From IMG/VR virus record IMGVR_UViG_3300030105_000384, positions 1 to 22,063 of that record: DNA of 22,063 nucleotides; one strand, 5' to 3'. This document shows positions 7,640-15,472 of this stretch, in pieces; the first letter of the stretch is position 1; each line of letters starts with the position of its first letter. A program made the translations under genes and the position numbers. Source of the stretch: a virus. The notes below the pieces were generated by a model, which ran no database searches, was not told the origin of the DNA, and saw only the letters and a program-made list of their open reading frames with translations.

Positions 7640-7668
7640 ATTATACCATATTTCTGTTTAAAAGTCAA
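7640..7668 (-). promoter_or_regulatory. Sigma70-type promoter with extended -10, before the adaptor gene
   Basis: On the minus strand TTGACT (7663-7668) and TATAAT (7640-7645) are separated by 17 bases, and TGG directly before the -10 gives an extended -10. This is close to consensus. A 21-base block at 7658-7678, covering the -35 and its flanks, is identical to the block at the other promoter (17873-17893). The expected start point, about seven bases after the -10, falls at 7632-7634, on or just past the adaptor start codon. The upstream holin-like gene ends inside the shared block. Confidence 0.85.
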
Positions 7669-8298: not shown

Positions 8299-8721
8299 TT
8301 AATATTTAAGATACATAACTACACCAAAGAAAGCAGCTAGGATAGTTATAAGTATTCCTACAACCTGACCTGCTAGTACCAGAGTATCCTTAATTTCCTT
8401 ATCCTTTGCTTTTTGTTTCTTAACATCTGCTTTTTGTTTCTTATAAAACTCTTCTCTAAATTGTTGATACTTATAATAGCCTTGTATTTCCTGCTTGTTT
8501 AGCATCCAAGCCAGTTCTTTTTCTTGACGTTCTATAGCTTGTTTTGCTTGGTAGGCAGCTAATACGTCACCTGTACCTAGTTTTACTTTTTGATGTATAG
8601 ACTGACTTGCACTAAAGTATTTAGTAACAGCAGATCCAGCATCAGCAATATCTTTACCATTAGATAATGTTTGCTTGATAACTGCAAAGGCTGCATTAGC
8701 TATCATTAATTCAGCTAACAT
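8299..8721 (-). CDS. Coiled-coil protein with C-terminal membrane span, about 140 aa
   Basis: The first 50 residues are hydrophobic to amphipathic helix with alanines (AELMIANAAFAVIKQ). Residues about 55-112 are highly charged, rich in lysine, glutamate and glutamine, and likely coiled coil. A single strong membrane span closes the protein. Two start codons are possible, 8727 and 8721. I prefer 8721, because AGAGG is eight bases from it and only two from the other. The gene overlaps the end of the preceding one by seven bases. Length and topology would suit an inner-membrane lysis accessory or a virion membrane protein. Similar openings occur in marine phage proteins of unknown function, as far as I recall. 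Confidence 0.75.
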   Translation of the reverse strand: MLAELMIANAAFAVIKQTLSNGKDIADAGSAVTKYFSASQSIHQKVKLGTGDVLAAYQAKQAIERQEKELAWMLNKQEIQGYYKYQQFREEFYKKQKADVKKQKAKDKEIKDTLVLAGQVVGILITILAAFFGVVMYLKY

Positions 8722-8897
8722 ACCCATACCCTCTTTGTGTACTCTACGGGAATCCCATATGGTTCTCTTGATGGTTGAACAACAAGATACTCTGCATTTA
8801 CTTTGTTCACTGCTGGCTCAATAAGTAAACCTTGACCTACAGGTGCTAATGATGGAGCTACATGAACAGGGTATATTTCTAATGGACTAGAGTTCAT
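8715..8897 (-). CDS. Small protein of unknown function, 60 aa, C-terminal cysteine
   Basis: The gene begins on the stop codon of the preceding gene (one-base overlap) and runs into the next one. It has no clear membrane span or signal peptide. The sequence is rich in proline and valine and ends in WVC, so the last residue is cysteine. That could be a coincidence, or a site for lipid attachment or disulfide formation. The tight overlaps on both sides support translation as part of the operon. I do not recognise a family. Confidence 0.6.
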   Translation of the reverse strand: MNSSPLEIYPVHVAPSLAPVGQGLLIEPAVNKVNAEYLVVQPSREPYGIPVEYTKRVWVC

Positions 8898-9127
8898 TAT
8901 ATACTCTGTATATTCTTAGCACAGAAAGCAACAGTAGTTTTTTCTTCTGTCTTTTTCTGTGCTGTGTATCCCAACGTAGGACTAACAATTAATTTGTATT
9001 CTAACTTTATAGAAACATCTATTAATTCTGCCCTACAACTTTTAAGAGTAGCATAGCTAGAAATTATAACAGGCATTGCAGGTGCTTCACTCGCTACAAT
9101 CATAGTTGCTACAAGGATAGACCACAT
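8897..9127 (-). CDS. Putative exported small protein with two cysteines, 76 aa
   Basis: The first 22 residues form a short hydrophobic stretch without an N-terminal charge pair, followed by small residues (ASEAPA). This could be a weak signal peptide cut near residue 17, leaving a mature domain of about 59 residues. Two cysteines, C31 and C69, would suit one disulfide in the periplasm. No lipobox is seen, so it is not an obvious outer-membrane spanin. Both neighbours overlap it by one base at TAATG junctions, which implies coupled translation. The position in the membrane cluster suggests a lysis-time or envelope role. Function is unknown. Confidence 0.65.
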   Translation of the reverse strand: MWSILVATMIVASEAPAMPVIISSYATLKSCRAELIDVSIKLEYKLIVSPTLGYTAQKKTEEKTTVAFCAKNIQSI

Positions 9128-9264
9128 TACTTTTTAGTCTTCTTATGAGTTAGATTCTTACTAGATGCAGTATGCTTTGCACCTGACATAAGTTTACCAT
9201 TAGTCTTGTGAGTCTTACCTGTGTACTCCTTACCATTTGGTAAGTAATGCTTAACCCCTTTCAT
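9127..9264 (-). CDS. Tiny basic protein, 45 aa
   Basis: The frame encodes 45 residues, strongly basic, with MKGVKHYLPNGKEY at the start, a central KLMSGAKHTASSKN motif and a terminal KKTKK. Histidine, lysine and glycine are frequent and no cysteine or membrane span is present. The start lies two bases after the preceding stop, and the stop overlaps the next gene's ATG by one base. The motif resembles small hypothetical proteins I recall from marine phages. Charge and late-operon position suggest nucleic acid binding or packaging with DNA, which is inference. Confidence 0.72.
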   Translation of the reverse strand: MKGVKHYLPNGKEYTGKTHKTNGKLMSGAKHTASSKNLTHKKTKK

Positions 9265-9266
9265 AC

Positions 9267-9368
9267 CTAGTACCCCATCCTTTTAGCTGGCTTCTTCTTA
9301 GCTGTCTTCTTCTTAGCTGGCTTCTTCTTAGGTGCTGTTGTCTTAGGTGCTTTATAACCATACATCAT
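9267..9368 (-). CDS. Tiny lysine/proline-rich histone-tail-like peptide, 33 aa
   Basis: The frame encodes 33 residues: a short MMYGYKAPKTTAP head, then three pentad repeats (KKKPA, KKKTA, KKKPA) and RMGY. A strong Shine-Dalgarno (AGAGG, eight bases before the first ATG at 9368) and two-base spacing to the next gene argue that it is translated. Composition resembles histone H1 or bacterial AlgP-type tails, so binding to DNA or RNA is plausible. The low complexity makes family assignment unsafe. A second ATG at 9365 is an alternative start. Confidence 0.68.
   Translation of the reverse strand: MMYGYKAPKTTAPKKKPAKKKTAKKKPAKRMGY
9285..9329 (-). repeat. Three tandem 15-base units
   Basis: Units at 9285-9299, 9300-9314 and 9315-9329 differ at one base and each encodes a KKKxA pentad. 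The period preserves frame, so copy number could vary between strains by slippage without breaking the gene. Confidence 0.9.
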
Positions 9369-9380
9369 AATAACTTCCTC

Positions 9381-9617
9381 TTACTTTCTAAACTTAGCTG
9401 TCTTCTTTGCAATCTTCTTAGGCTGCTTTACAAACTGCTTACCAGCCTTAGTTCCTTTACGCTTTGCTGCTGTAGTAGCTGCATACTCTTTAGCACTCAG
9501 GGCATCCCTAGCTGCTTTAGGTAAGTAACGCTCACCTGTCTTAGCACTAGCTTTACCACTCTTAGTACCCCACTTCTCCTTAGTCCATTTCTTTAAAGAC
9601 TTCTGTGATTCTTTCAC
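9381..9617 (-). CDS. Small basic protein resembling DUF5872, 78 aa
   Basis: The protein has the run KKWTKEKWGTKSGKAS, then TGERYLPKAA, then EYAATTAAKRKGTKAGKQF and KQPKKIAKKTA. This order of motifs matches the uncharacterised family I know as DUF5872 (recalled, not searched). It is highly basic with no cysteine. The start codon is GTG at 9617, overlapping the preceding TGA by four bases, a classic coupling arrangement. Function of the family is unknown. The charge and the company of other basic proteins suggest interaction with nucleic acid. Confidence 0.78.
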   Translation of the reverse strand: MKESQKSLKKWTKEKWGTKSGKASAKTGERYLPKAARDALSAKEYAATTAAKRKGTKAGKQFVKQPKKIAKKTAKFRK

Positions 9618-9793
9618 TTGTAACCTCCACCAGCTTTCTTATACTGTGTAGCTAGAAGTTGTGCCTTACGTGCTGACCACTGACCAGCCTTACCACCACT
9701 AGTACCTGCCTTGATCTTTTTAAAAAGAGTCTTACGCATAGTAGGCTTAGTGTAGTTACCTGCTGCATTTACTTTTGATTTTGCTTTTACCAT
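9614..9793 (-). CDS. Tiny basic protein with GQWSARKAQLLA and GGGYK motifs, 59 aa
   Basis: This 59-residue frame starts at an ATG overlapping the end of the 92-residue gene by seven bases and ends in a four-base overlap with the GTG start of the next gene. It is basic throughout, with MRKTLFKKIKAG near residues 19-30, then GGKAGQWSARKAQLLATQYK and a terminal GGGYK. This is a recurrent small phage protein pattern as I recall it; no function is known to me. No membrane span or cysteine is present. Overlaps at both ends make a chance reading frame unlikely. Confidence 0.75.
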   Translation of the reverse strand: MVKAKSKVNAAGNYTKPTMRKTLFKKIKAGTSGGKAGQWSARKAQLLATQYKKAGGGYK

Positions 9794-10065
9794 TTTGATT
9801 TGTTCGCCCAGAATGCTGCTGACATCTTACCCTTAGCAATGTTCTTACCATGCCTAGCTTTGAATGATTTACGTTTAGCTTTCATCTTATCACTCTCTCC
9901 AGCCTTGGGCTTACCTGCTGTACTTGCACCTTGCTCACCATAACGAATCATCTTAATGGTAGATCCTTCCTTAGCTAGAACTACGTGAGACTTAGTAGCA
10001 TGTTTAGGTGTACGCTTAGGCTTGTTGTAACCAGCAAACTTCTCACCTCTGTAGTCTACGCTCAT
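9787..10065 (-). CDS. Small basic protein, FKARHGKNIAKGKMSAAFWA type, 92 aa
   Basis: The first half contains scattered lysines and a hydrophobic strand (SHVVLAKEG), and the second half is dominated by lysine and arginine, closing with KARHGKNIAKGKMSAAFWANKSKW-like features at residues 69-92. The C-terminal motif is common in marine phage hypothetical proteins as far as I recall. The ATG at 10065 overlaps the fibre stop by one base, and GGAGG lies four bases upstream. It opens a cluster of five basic small genes. Possible roles are DNA condensation or a virion-internal protein. Neither is shown by the sequence. Confidence 0.75.
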   Translation of the reverse strand: MSVDYRGEKFAGYNKPKRTPKHATKSHVVLAKEGSTIKMIRYGEQGASTAGKPKAGESDKMKAKRKSFKARHGKNIAKGKMSAAFWANKSKW

Positions 10066-11630
10066 TATGCCTCCAGTGCTTCAATTCGTGCTGATAATTC
10101 TTTGATTGCGTTAAGCATATGCCAGTGCAGGTCGTCCCCTGATACTACCTTAACCCCACTAGACTGTGTAACAACACAATCTGGACAGATTAGTTCAAGC
10201 TCCTGTGCTATAACACCTAGCTGTGTACCAGACTTTGCAATAGCTTGATTTGAATTTAAAACACCATCTGACCCAACTTCCTCTGCGGTCTTGTAATCAA
10301 AGTTACGAACTTGTATGGCATTAATCTTTGCTAGTCCAACATTATTATTAACAATGTTTTTCTTTAATCGCTCATCCGATACTTGCCCCCATGTCTGCGA
10401 GTTGTTGCCTTGAAACATGAAGCCGCCATTGGGGTTTATAAAACCTGTGTTAGACCCCTTACCTACTACAGCACTACCCCCAGTTGTACCTAACACTATA
10501 GTCTGGCTGTTACCTACAGCTTCTGGTTTAGTGTTAGTGCCAAAGAATATGTTGTAACTGCCCGTTGTTAAAGAAGTTCCAGCTAAGTATCCTTCTCCTA
10601 TGTTATAACTACCAGTGGTAACATCGTTTAATGTTTTATAACCACTAGCTGTGTTATAAGAACCTGTTGTGTTGCTTAACAAAGAAAGTACACCTGTTGC
10701 GGTATTGTAACCACCTGTGGTGTTAGCTGGTAAAGCAGAAGCCCCTACAGCACTATTTCTTAAACCTGTAGTATTTGCGACTAAAGCACCTTGACCAACT
10801 GCGGAATTGTTTGGCCCTGTAGTGTTGGCACTTAAAGCAAAACTACCTAAAGAAGTATTTTCACCACCCGTAGTGTTAGCGTCTAAAGAACCTATACCTA
10901 CTGCCACATTGTCACTACCTGTTGTGTTAGACCCTAACGAAAAATAACCTAATCCTGTGTTATTACCACCCGTAGTGTTAGCTAGCAACGCATCTGCTCC
11001 AAGAGCAGTGTTCTGTGCCCCTGTGGTGCTAGCAGTTAAAGCATTTCTACCAACTGCGGTATTATAAGAAGCAGTTGTGTTACCATTTAAAGCACCCTGA
11101 CCAACTGCGGTATTATCAAGACCCGTAGTATTGCTTGCAAGAGAAGCATCACCGATAGCAGTGTTGAACTGACCTGTTGTGGACAACTGTAGTGCAAATG
11201 TTCCTACTGCTGTGTTGTATGCCGCAGTAGTGTTAGTACCTAACGCACTTTTACCTACAGCAGTATTACGATCACCTGTAGTAATAGCAGTGCCAGCATT
11301 AGTACCAACTAACGTATTCTCATTACCACCAGACGTAATGCTATCGCCAGCAGTAGATCCAGCTACAAAGTTATCTGTACCTAGAGTGACAGAAGTAATG
11401 CCCTTAGTTGCAATGTTACCTGTCATCGTGCCGCCAGCTTTGGGTAAGGCTGCTGCTGCTGTAGCTGTAGTAGATGTTAAGATACCATCACGGGTAGCAA
11501 TGTCTACTCCATCAAAGGTGCTGTTAGTTGTAACTGCTCCAGTTAATGCACCACCAGACTTAGGCAACTTAGCTGCTAAATTAGCATCAAGAGTTTTTAA
11601 GTCTTCTACTGAATCTCTTGCCTTACTCAT
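10065..11630 (-). CDS. Tail fibre with peptidase S74 chaperone domain, second copy, 521 aa
   Basis: The order is a short head (1-24), a TGAVTTNSTFDG motif region (25-100), about 15 tandem 17-residue units (117-371) of the form TTGxxNTAVGxxAL, and a C-terminal intramolecular chaperone (418-521). The chaperone has the SDERLKK motif with the expected Ser418-Lys423 dyad for self-cleavage after trimer folding, and GVIAQELE. The 17-residue units resemble the beta-roll of trimeric autotransporter heads. It is clearly a paralogue of the 1017-residue fibre, but lacks that protein's N-terminal anchor and alanine/serine region. AAGGAG precedes the ATG. It may be a distal piece, an alternative tip, or a separate fibre held by another protein. 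Confidence 0.85.
   Translation of the reverse strand: MSKARDSVEDLKTLDANLAAKLPKSGGALTGAVTTNSTFDGVDIATRDGILTSTTATAAAALPKAGGTMTGNIATKGITSVTLGTDNFVAGSTAGDSITSGGNENTLVGTNAGTAITTGDRNTAVGKSALGTNTTAAYNTAVGTFALQLSTTGQFNTAIGDASLASNTTGLDNTAVGQGALNGNTTASYNTAVGRNALTASTTGAQNTALGADALLANTTGGNNTGLGYFSLGSNTTGSDNVAVGIGSLDANTTGGENTSLGSFALSANTTGPNNSAVGQGALVANTTGLRNSAVGASALPANTTGGYNTATGVLSLLSNTTGSYNTASGYKTLNDVTTGSYNIGEGYLAGTSLTTGSYNIFFGTNTKPEAVGNSQTIVLGTTGGSAVVGKGSNTGFINPNGGFMFQGNNSQTWGQVSDERLKKNIVNNNVGLAKINAIQVRNFDYKTAEEVGSDGVLNSNQAIAKSGTQLGVIAQELELICPDCVVTQSSGVKVVSGDDLHWHMLNAIKELSARIEALEA
10518..11282 (-). repeat. About 15 tandem 51-base units in fibre 2
   Basis: Codons 117-371 encode 17-residue units starting TTG or TTA and containing NTAVG. 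The last two or three units are degenerate. The repeats are clear in protein but diverged in DNA. Confidence 0.92.
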
Positions 11631-11856: not shown

Positions 11857-14800
11857 CTATCCTTCTAGTGTTGTGATACGTGCAGCGAGTGCTGCGTTTT
11901 GGGCTGATAATTCTTGTATTGCTTTTACCATTGACCAGAATATCGGGTCTGTGTTGACTTGCTTTAGACCATGATTATTCTCTGAAACTGCATCAGGTAA
12001 CACTAATTCTAACTCTTGTGCTATTACTCCTGTTTGCAATCCAGCAGCATCAGACGTAGTTAAACCTTCTACTGTAACTTCTTCTTGAGTTTTAAAATTA
12101 AAGTTACGTACTTGTATAGCGTCAATCTTTGCTAGACCATTAGGGCTATCTACAATGTTTTTCTTAATTCGTTCATCAGATATGGTACTCCAAGTATTTG
12201 TATTATCGCCTTGAAAGCACTGACCTGCTGAAGTACCATGTATCCATACAGAAGAATTACCTACACCTTGTGGGCCTCTTGCAATCCATAATTGAGTGTT
12301 ACCTGTTGTCTCTGATCCACCAGCTTGATTCCCAATACGTACATTTAAAGATCCTGTTGTAACAGTAGCACCAGCAGTTTCACCTATAAAAGTATTATTC
12401 GAACCTGTAGTTAGAGCAGCCCCAGCAAAAGAACCATAGCCACAGTTTTTTTGGCCTGTAGTAACCGCTCCTAAAGCAGACTTACCAACTGCTGTGTTTC
12501 TTTGGCCTGTAGTGTTAGCATAGGCAGCCTCTGTACCCATAAAAGTATTATTAGAGCCTGTTGACAAGTCATGCCCAGCAGTAAAACCAATTACAACATT
12601 GTTAGAAGCCGTTGTTGCTGACACCGCAGCATGATAGCCCATTGCTACGTTTGACTGTCCCGTTGTGTTAGTTCCTAATGAGTTGATACCAACAGCAGTG
12701 TTGTTTGCACCTGTGGTATTTGCGTCCATAGATTGATAACCGATAGCAGTATTGTTACTTGCGGTGGTGTTAGCTGTCAAAGCTCCAGTACCCACAGCAG
12801 TGTTTTGTGCGCCTGTTGAGTTAACCTGTAACGAACTTTTACCTACGGCTGTGTTGTTGCTTGCTGTAGTGTTGCCTGATAAAGCATCTTTACCTACTGC
12901 GGTGTTACGATAACCTGTACTGTTAGTGTATAAAGCACTAAAACCAACACCAGTATTGTCACCACCTGTGGTGTTAGAAGCTGAAGCCTCTCGACCAACA
13001 GCAGTGTTATTAGATGCTGTGGTGTTAGACCTTAAAGATTCATAGCCAATAGCTGTGTTTTTAGAGCCTGTAGTGTTAACCGCTAAAGAGTCTGAACCTA
13101 CTGCTATGTTGCTAGAGCCTGTAGTGTTAAGACGTAGTGCTTTGAAGCCATAGCCAGTGTTATGGCTTGCTGTGGTGTTAGTTAATAAAGCCTCAAAACC
13201 AACCGCAGTATTTAAAGAACCTGTGGTGTTAGCACCTAGCGCACTTAAACCAACAGCAATATTGTTACTGGCGGTAGTATTTGCACCTAGAGAAGCATAT
13301 CCAAGAGCAGTGTTATTAGCACCTGTAGTGTTAGCACCTAGGTTGCCACCAGCACCTACTGATACATTGTTAGAGCCAGTCGTAATAACCCTTGAAGCAA
13401 GATAACCAAATGCCGTATTGTTGTCACCTGTAGTAATCGCAGTTCCAGCGTTAGTACCTACTAGTGTGTTGTTATCACCACCTGACGTAATGCTATCTCC
13501 AGCAGTCGAACCAGCTACAAAGTTGTTATTACCTGCTGTGACACTGGTGATACCTTTAGTGGCTATGTTACCTGTAAATGTACCGCCAGCTTTAGGCATA
13601 GCGTTAGTAGCCAATACTCCGTCTGCTGCTACGTCCCTTCCGTCTATAGTAGAGTTAGTAGTGACAGCACCTGTAAATGCACCACCGCCCTTGGGCATTG
13701 CGTTAGTTGCTAGTACTCCGTCTGCTGCTACATCTCTACCATCAAAAGTACTGTTGGTAGTAACTGCACCACTAAAAGCACCTCCAGCTTTAGGCATAGC
13801 ATTCGTAGCTAGTACACCATCAGCAGCAACATCACGACCATCAAAGGTACTGTTAGTAGTTACTGCTCCAGTTAACGCACCACCAGCTAGACCTAAGAAA
13901 CGAGCATCTGCCTGTGTTTTATTATAATGATCTGATAAAGCAAATGTTCCAAATGATTGTATAAATACTATATCGTTTGCAGTAGCACCTATGTCTAATA
14001 CTACTGTAGAACCATTAGTTGCTGTGTAATCTCCTGTGTCTAAACGTATTCCGTTAAGATATACTTGTAAATAACCAGCGTCATACGTAGCATTAAAGCT
14101 AGTCTGGTTTGCTGAAGCTGTGTACTGTACTGAGTTTTGAGTACCATTAACAGATGAACCAGCATTAATAAAACCAGATCCACTATAAACTTTCATAGTG
14201 TTAGATGAGGTATCAAACCATAAGTCACCTGTACTTGGATTACTAGGGGCTGATGATTGTGAAACGTACTGGCCTTGGAATGTAGTTAATGATGCAGCAG
14301 ATGCTGTAGCTGAGTTACCACTAGCTGTTGCTGAGTTGGCTGAGGCAGTGGCTGAGTTGGCTGCTGCTGTAGCCTTTGTAGTTGCAAGTGTTGCTTTTGT
14401 ACTTGCAGTAGAGGCAGAGGCAGCAGACTCATTAGCTTTGGTAGTTGAAGTAGATGCAGAATTACCAGAAGCAGTGGCACTGTTGGCTGAAGCTGTGGCT
14501 GAGTTGGCTGAAGCCGTAGCTGAGTTGGCTGACGCAGTGGCACTGTTACCACTAGCAGTAGCACTGTTTGCTGAAGCAGTAGCTGAACTAGCCGCTTGAC
14601 CTGCTTTAGTAGTTGATATGGCTGCTTGTGCAGCAGATGTATTCTTACTTGCTAACGATGCTGAAGCACTGTTACCTGATGCAGTGGCACTGTTACCACT
14701 AGCTGTTGCACTGTTTGCTGAAGCAGTAGCACTATTGGCTGATGCTGTAGCTGATGTACCAGCACCAGATGCAGAGGAGGAGGCTGCGGTTGCACTGTTA

Positions 14801-14910
14801 GCACTAGCTGTAGCGGAAGCTGCTGCCTGTTCAGCTTTAAGTGTTACTTCTGTAATGGTAGCATCAGTGTTGGAGTCACCAGTACCACCTACTCCTCTGT
14901 AAATACCCAT
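11857..14910 (-). CDS. Long tail fibre with peptidase S74 chaperone domain, 1017 aa
   Basis: The layers are an anchor (1-26, IYRGVGGTGDSNTDATI), an alanine/serine/asparagine heptad region (27-206, NSATASx units), a linker with GDLWFD (about 228-233), a beta domain with VYLNGIRLD (255-325), three 33-residue repeats (342-440), about 22 units of 17 residues (493-867), and a C-terminal chaperone (911-1017). The chaperone has SDERIKK with Ser911 and Lys916, the serine-lysine pair used by S74 domains to cut themselves off after trimerisation. The product is an adhesin shaft with a beta-roll head, probably binding the cell surface. AAGGAAT precedes the ATG. Whether it binds the tail directly or through the 251-residue protein is unknown. 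Confidence 0.9.
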   Translation of the reverse strand: MGIYRGVGGTGDSNTDATITEVTLKAEQAAASATASANSATAASSSASGAGTSATASANSATASANSATASGNSATASGNSASASLASKNTSAAQAAISTTKAGQAASSATASANSATASGNSATASANSATASANSATASANSATASGNSASTSTTKANESAASASTASTKATLATTKATAAANSATASANSATASGNSATASAASLTTFQGQYVSQSSAPSNPSTGDLWFDTSSNTMKVYSGSGFINAGSSVNGTQNSVQYTASANQTSFNATYDAGYLQVYLNGIRLDTGDYTATNGSTVVLDIGATANDIVFIQSFGTFALSDHYNKTQADARFLGLAGGALTGAVTTNSTFDGRDVAADGVLATNAMPKAGGAFSGAVTTNSTFDGRDVAADGVLATNAMPKGGGAFTGAVTTNSTIDGRDVAADGVLATNAMPKAGGTFTGNIATKGITSVTAGNNNFVAGSTAGDSITSGGDNNTLVGTNAGTAITTGDNNTAFGYLASRVITTGSNNVSVGAGGNLGANTTGANNTALGYASLGANTTASNNIAVGLSALGANTTGSLNTAVGFEALLTNTTASHNTGYGFKALRLNTTGSSNIAVGSDSLAVNTTGSKNTAIGYESLRSNTTASNNTAVGREASASNTTGGDNTGVGFSALYTNSTGYRNTAVGKDALSGNTTASNNTAVGKSSLQVNSTGAQNTAVGTGALTANTTASNNTAIGYQSMDANTTGANNTAVGINSLGTNTTGQSNVAMGYHAAVSATTASNNVVIGFTAGHDLSTGSNNTFMGTEAAYANTTGQRNTAVGKSALGAVTTGQKNCGYGSFAGAALTTGSNNTFIGETAGATVTTGSLNVRIGNQAGGSETTGNTQLWIARGPQGVGNSSVWIHGTSAGQCFQGDNTNTWSTISDERIKKNIVDSPNGLAKIDAIQVRNFNFKTQEEVTVEGLTTSDAAGLQTGVIAQELELVLPDAVSENNHGLKQVNTDPIFWSMVKAIQELSAQNAALAARITTLEG
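12310..13434 (-). repeat. About 22 tandem 51-base units in fibre 1
   Basis: Codons 493-867 encode 17-residue units, with TTG and TTAS forms mixed and NTAVG or variants inside. Unit 2 is 18 residues long. One unit contains a cysteine (KNCGYG). Confidence 0.92.
13591..13887 (-). repeat. Three 99-base repeats with scrambled codons in fibre 1
   Basis: Codons 342-440 encode three 33-residue units around TGAVTTNST and DGRDVAADGVLATNAMPK. The protein is almost identical in all three, while the codons differ heavily. The arginine, for instance, is CGT, AGA and AGG in the three copies. Confidence 0.93.
14293..14832 (-). repeat. Alanine/serine/asparagine heptad repeat region
   Basis: Codons 27-206 of fibre 1 are built largely from seven-residue units of the NSATASA/NSATASG type, interrupted at about 83-110 and 152-183. 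The composition resembles the shaft repeats of lambda-type side tail fibres and suggests a trimeric coiled coil. Confidence 0.85.
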
Positions 14911-14920
14911 AGTCTATTCC

Positions 14921-15472
14921 TTAATAAGGTGAAGTCTTATTGTTTCTGTAATCTTTTTGCCTAGCTTTAACCTTTGCTGAGGTACTTAGTTTACGTCTAG
15001 CAGCTTGAAGTTTTTTCTGAGCATCTTCTTTCTTTTTAGCTGCTGCAAGATTTTTCACAACTTGTGGATTAGTGCTTACATAAGGTTTATTCTTTGGTCT
15101 ACCTTTTAATACGTTTACTGCTGTACCAGATTGTGGCCCTTTAGTTATCTTAGCTGCCTTATAAGGAGTGACAGTAACATTACTCTTAGGCTTATCAGCT
15201 TTCTTTTTAGCTACAGCCTTAACTACATTATTAGGATTACGATCCATAGTCAGCTTCTTTACTGCTGGCTGACGTACTTTCTTAGATGCATCTTTCTGAC
15301 GAACTACACCTGTCTTACTTTTAAGTACCCCTGTTTTAGTTTTAACAGCAGTACCTTTAGAATCTTTATTGAGTTGATTTAGTTTGTATTGTAAACGTCC
15401 TACTGTCTGCATAGACTTACCAGCTTTCTTAGCTGCTGCAATCTGTGCTTTTAATGATGCTTTAGTTTCCAT
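14921..15472 (-). CDS. Lysine-rich basic protein after the capsid gene, 183 aa
   Basis: A strongly basic protein, rich in lysine, alanine and threonine. It opens with a likely helix (residues 1-35, METKASLKAQIAAAKKAGKS), continues with near-repeats TGVLKSKTGVVRQK at about 47-60, and ends in an alanine/lysine/arginine-rich segment (143-175). There is no cysteine and no membrane span. AGGGG lies six bases before the ATG, just after the terminator that follows the capsid gene. Candidates are a DNA-binding internal head protein or an assembly factor. No family is recognised. Confidence 0.68.
   Translation of the reverse strand: METKASLKAQIAAAKKAGKSMQTVGRLQYKLNQLNKDSKGTAVKTKTGVLKSKTGVVRQKDASKKVRQPAVKKLTMDRNPNNVVKAVAKKKADKPKSNVTVTPYKAAKITKGPQSGTAVNVLKGRPKNKPYVSTNPQVVKNLAAAKKKEDAQKKLQAARRKLSTSAKVKARQKDYRNNKTSPY

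Follow-up and report, generated by a model that had tools for sequence, protein, structure and literature searches.

Five small reading frames, designated A to E, follow one another on the minus strand between a fibre-like gene and a three-gene module (Table 1). The window, i.e. the whole stretch of DNA that was analysed, is an entire IMG/VR record of 22,063 bases and possibly a genome fragment. The earlier note had described five end-to-end frames of 92, 59, 78, 33 and 45 residues, and its coordinates, overlaps and TAATG junction proved to be exact. Genes A and B overlap by 7 bases and B and C by 4 bases; gaps of 12 and 2 bases separate C from D and D from E, respectively. The stop codon of the fibre gene and the start codon of A are joined by a one-base TAATG overlap at position 10065. 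A second overlap of this kind, absent from the earlier note, joins E to the next frame at position 9127. Shine-Dalgarno-like sequences precede A (GGAGG), C (GGAGG) and D (AGAGGAAG). All products were computed to be basic and free of cysteines, as had been proposed (pI 10.4-10.8, net charge +11 to +21). D is rich in AKKKPAKKK and resembles the tail of histone H1 in composition, and E is a protein with a KHY-NG-EY-G-HK motif. No minus-strand terminator-like site was found in the cluster, and promoter-like matches within it were no commoner than in shuffled sequence.

Table 1. Positions of the cluster genes and of neighbouring features in the window
Feature	Position	Strand	Product (aa)	Start codon	pI	Remarks
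Gene A	10065-9787	minus	92	ATG	10.5	
Gene B	9793-9614	minus	59	ATG	10.8	
Gene C	9617-9381	minus	78	GTG	10.7	
ORF D	9368-9267	minus	33	ATG		
Gene E	9264-9127	minus	45	ATG		
Three-gene module	8299-9127	minus	76, 60, 142			adjoins the cassette; not part of the basic set
Basic ORF	14921-15472	minus	183		10.8	net charge +41; directly after the major capsid gene
Fibre-like gene	10065-11630	minus				
Larger fibre-like gene	11857-14910	minus				C-terminal Peptidase_S74
Promoter-like site	7640-7668	minus				TTGACT-17-TATAAT, 11/12, with TG; just before tail tube A

The main genes of the window all lie on the minus strand. They comprise a lysozyme-like gene, terminase, portal, scaffold, major capsid protein, the basic 183-aa ORF, two fibres, the cluster, the three-gene module, a holin-like gene, and tail tubes A and B. 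The names of terminase, portal, scaffold, capsid and tail genes are based on PHROG matches; those of lysozyme, holin and tail tube B are partly our own reading. The source is a marine phage that looks short-tailed. The scaffold is acidic (pI 4.8, net charge -17). The basic protein encoded after the capsid gene, to which the earlier note had drawn attention, is indeed present; it gave no tblastn match among 50,697 phage records and no PHROG or Pfam match. A megablast search of the cluster region against the phage records gave no match, and the PADLOC models of anti-phage defence did not match any of A to E. In relatives for which more sequence is available (L022, L060, L207, L226 and L230), as in the window, the cassette lies in the stretch that separates the major capsid gene from tail tube A. 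Across a wider sample, most of the closest larger genes whose PHROG has a name encode terminase, portal, head morphogenesis, maturation protease, endolysin and holin proteins. These neighbours uphold the proposed placement in the virion and lysis region, and the position appears typical of a late region.

The order A-B-C-D-E is kept in four close relatives (L330-L333; DNA identity 93-97% across the cluster region), where, as in the window, the three-gene module, the holin-like gene and tail tube A come next. In these relatives the A protein is identical (dN 0, dS 0.09-0.20), B differs by a single amino acid (dN 0.007 versus dS 0.14-0.23), and E is identical with synonymous differences only (dN 0). 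C evolves faster, with 69-76 of its 78 residues identical. Compared to more distant relatives, dN/dS was 0.05-0.08 for A, 0.04-0.09 for B, 0.10 for C (one usable pair), and 0.12-0.31 for E. By this pattern of substitutions A, B, C and E are real genes. D is 88-100% identical in six relatives and shows an in-frame length change, with too few substitutions to gauge selection; a chance reading frame is disfavoured by this change and by its presence in the six relatives. D is conserved among close relatives only and is the least supported of the five, and thus it is considered a gene less surely than the other four.

Association of the families was analysed in IMG/VR, where scans with A, B and C each yielded at least 600 matches. 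Only the best 80 per query were examined, and the sample is therefore biased to near relatives. Among these, C was present in all 80 B loci, downstream and on the same strand; B was present in 62 of 75 further C loci, and both B and C in 24 of 77 further A loci. Wherever B and C co-occurred they were on the same strand with B first (171/171, counting the window and overlapping contigs), and 142 of these pairs were within 300 bases of each other. The longest gap was 1765 bases and fits phage HMO-2011, in which an oxygenase gene separates B and C. Besides HMO-2011, the set is present in the isolated Roseobacter phages CRP-13, CRP-603 and CRP-207. B is fused to C in L112/L113/L115/L125, L123, L127, L134, L146 and L155, and C to A in L156 and L055. 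In about ten loci E separates B from C, and in many it is found near A. A search starting from E, which is free of this bias, placed A in 53 of 80 loci and A, B and C together in 10 of 80. The gene orders observed across phages were A-E, B-E-C, A-B-C and B-C-A.

Gain and loss affected B and C jointly. Contigs L334 and L337 retain A, a nine-codon stub of B, and then E, so that B-C-D is missing in one piece compared to L330-L333; L340 is devoid of B-C, which is present in the same setting in L341 and L343. A and E occur without other cassette members in many contigs, and A is by far the most widespread family of the set. The check for synteny of the motifs, fused versions included, thus found families that recur together as well as B-C and C-A fusions, which together with the joint gain and loss of B-C favours the proposed single functional set. 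To treat all five as a fixed unit goes too far, since B-C may be missing where A and E are retained and A occurs far more widely. Judged by these gene neighbourhoods, A, B and C form one set, which E frequently joins.

B and C correspond to phrog_17747 and phrog_14910, PHROG families with no assigned function. Neither protein alone matched DUF5872 (PF19197) at E <= 1 or any other Pfam family. Fused phage B-C forms matched DUF5872 colinearly across both halves, with best scores of 24-25 bits, below the curated cut-off of 27.5 bits. In phage CRP-207, two adjoining ORFs align to positions 1-52 and 41-101 of the model. A GTDB search with C retrieved about 45 loci in Alphaproteobacteria, all encoding single-gene B-then-C proteins. 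Two of ten bacterial homologues tested exceeded the cut-off (L280, 32.1 bits, positions 2-110 of 116; L286, 28.0 bits), and both of these were matched by the B and the C profile at E 1e-14 or better. The Azospirillum homologue is named DUF5872 in RefSeq. DUF5872 proteins of Alphaproteobacteria, phages and an algal giant virus have the same block order as B followed by C, i.e. KGG-GQWSARKAQ-YK-GGGY, then WT-W-TKSGK-GERYLP-GKQ-QP, and homologues passing the cut-off align with both proteins. By these alignments B is the N-terminal and C the C-terminal half of a DUF5872-type protein. In the window the halves are encoded in order by two overlapping genes, and the product of each on its own fails to match the Pfam model. 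The DUF5872 resemblance stated in the earlier note for one of the proteins was accordingly not found for B or C singly and holds for both together. Since the window proteins stay below the cut-off, B+C is termed a split DUF5872 relative rather than a formal member. A duplication origin of B and C from each other was rejected by profile comparison (0.1% probability). In the CRP-207 record (L001:3977-4324, minus strand) only a 32-aa gene is annotated; extending the reading in frame gives a match to the second half of DUF5872, and therefore the annotation probably misses most of the gene.

Most alphaproteobacterial B-C proteins end in a GRSKMSKAEL-like segment resembling Rho_N, with all matches below the cut-off (best E 3e-5, 24.2 bits versus 24.9). 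The form of the roseobacter Phaeobacter inhibens, PGA1_RS18440 of strain DSM 17395, has two Rho_N-like repeats, and Roseomonas forms have long histone-H1-like AAKRAPAAKRAP tails. The window, in contrast, has neither a C-terminal Rho_N-like segment nor such a tail; ORF D takes the place of the tail after C, and its AKKKPAKKK recalls the Roseomonas tail in composition and place, not as alignable homology. The bacterial genes are chromosomal or plasmid-borne, with no phage genes nearby and no visible link to phage heads. They are accessory, being present in 2 of 240 genomes of the class and in 12 of 41 genomes of one genus. Split forms assigned to other phyla come from MAG or single-cell contigs and are probably phage sequence. 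In a quick tree of B+C with many unresolved forks, nearly all split forms were on one side of a supported branch (95) and the fused form L123 was nested among them. The split thus looks old and rare, its direction depending on the root.

Gene A belongs to phrog_7595 and was present in 153 phage records. Its domain follows a Peptidase_S78_2 domain in the annotated capsid protease gp125 of ICP1, precedes such a domain in gene 0055 of Aeromonas phage PAc (both XkdF-type proteins, 35-36% identity over the A domain), and lies between the portal and MuF domains in Aphanizomenon phage CL131. In contrast to the first two proteins, A of the window is free-standing: it has no Pfam match and no protease domain, and only the accessory domain is common to it and Peptidase_S78_2 (XkdF). 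A weak match to phrog_220 ('minor head protein and DNA pilot'; 4e-6) is due to the domain in common with CL131-type portals. A precedes the coat genes in KBS-S-2A, and in HTVC008M and immuto it is located away from annotated head genes. Its fusions link A to head proteins. A search of the chromosomes of 12 bacteria that have B-C homologues, run without a positive control, found no A.

The predicted structure of A consists of a beta-hairpin and two helices (pLDDT 90), and that of a fused B-C protein is mainly helical (pLDDT 92, pTM 0.63). Fold searches of the PDB with A and B-C gave no match with E below 0.7 and no known DNA-binding fold, and no solved relatives were found by sequence. The B-C model matched confidently only viral models, mostly unnamed, one of which contains a B-like stretch within a phage protein named ParB/sulfiredoxin. 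A SAP-like fold of B, hinted at by a weak Pfam match (FANC_SAP, 0.03), was not confirmed by the fold search.

Small virion proteins that are internal or ejected, and whose late-region genes lie close to the head genes, include the internal proteins of T4, which are basic, and gp6.7 and gp7.3 of T7. A to E are likewise small and encoded near head genes; in Pfam and PHROG they gave no match to the families of these T4 and T7 proteins. Bacterial nucleoid proteins with H1-like tails of lysine, alanine and proline exist, and D and the Roseomonas B-C proteins are similar to them in charge and tail composition. No match of A to E to HU, H-NS or other nucleoid families was found in Pfam.

The reading preferred here, to which a probability of roughly 0.45 is assigned, is that the set consists of late proteins which bind nucleic acid and act at the head or inside it. 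A to E would be made together with the head proteins and would be small, folded, basic proteins that bind nucleic acid. B-C would represent a DNA- or RNA-associated module and D a detached H1-like tail, and A would couple the set to the head interior. This role is assigned to A because of its fusions, in other phages, to a capsid protease and a portal-MuF protein. The bacterial counterpart of B+C is joined to DNA/RNA-binding-like or histone-like tails, and therefore the set probably handles DNA during head filling; most likely, phage DNA would be bound during packaging and the proteins would remain in or near the head. Binding of nucleic acid is suggested by the charge and by the Rho_N-like and H1-like tails of homologues, and action at the head by gene position and the fusions of A. 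The coupling of B and C, the fusions, the paired gain and loss and the location between capsid and tail genes argue for this assignment, as do the absence of cysteines and the confidently predicted compact folds. Against it count the Rho_N matches below the Pfam cut-off, the cellular setting of the bacterial homologues away from any head, the occurrence of A apart from head genes, the occasional absence of B-C, and the lack of a match to a solved fold. Searches of open-licence papers for virion proteomes of phages with these genes gave nothing usable, nor did data on binding or expression come to light.

Much of the same evidence could be read differently. The set may act in the host cell, where a taken-apart alphaproteobacterial DUF5872 protein would bind the nucleoid or RNA of the host at a late stage of infection (in host shut-off, nucleoid handling or transcript control). 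The nearest cellular counterparts are chromosomal and plasmid genes of Alphaproteobacteria, including P. inhibens, in surroundings free of phage genes, and they carry Rho_N-like repeats; the cassette, however, lies in the virion region and A is fused to head proteins, so that this explanation is tentative and on the unlikely side. The occurrence of the A domain in the XkdF-type protease and the portal-MuF fusion, its place before the coat genes in KBS-S-2A and the acidic scaffold as a possible partner would also suit cofactors of head assembly. A and the B-C protein would then aid scaffold, protease or portal in building the prohead, and their charge would serve protein contacts rather than nucleic acid. 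Such a role is unlikely in view of bacterial B-C proteins encoded with no head genes nearby and of H1-like and Rho_N-like tails that suggest nucleic acid. That unrelated small genes merely gathered in a permissive late region and were carried along, with no joint function, would agree with the variable order and membership and with the many contigs having A and E without the rest. It is hard to reconcile with C in every one of the 80 best B loci of at least 600, the B-C and C-A fusions, the paired gain and loss of B-C and purifying selection, and is considered very improbable.

A more far-reaching version of the preferred head reading is speculative and rather doubtful: in marine phages, a taken-apart nucleoid-type DUF5872 protein (B, C and the tail D) together with a head-coupling A might form a virion chromatin set that binds the genome during packaging and enters the next host. 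If so, DUF5872 would be a nucleic-acid-binding module common to bacteria, phages and algal viruses.

The earlier note went too far in calling the system undescribed, as A, B and C are already catalogued as PHROG 7595, 17747 and 14910, with no function given. In open-licence papers we found no account of the split form of DUF5872, of how it is coupled to A or of its counterpart in bacteria; a single one of them mentions DUF5872, as a list entry. The three families are abundant in ocean viruses, and several unconnected hypothetical proteins become one testable set in which B+C is connected to one cellular family and A to capsid protease and portal. DUF5872 gains a mechanistic lead open to experiment in P. 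inhibens and other culturable bacteria.

Further observations concern the neighbours of the cassette. In many relatives the three-gene module is found together with A and E, to one side of the cassette or the other. Its 76-aa protein contains two cysteines and starts with a signal-like stretch. A small basic HNH_3-like protein is encoded directly upstream of A in L093 (1951-2259; E 4.5e-7), and a similar one upstream of A in L060 (5032-5301) scored below the cut-off (0.035). The promoter-like site before tail tube A is a strong one, and the count of such sites in the region was close to the shuffle mean. The two fibre-like genes are adjacent and related, and contain many NTTGxxNTAVG repeats.
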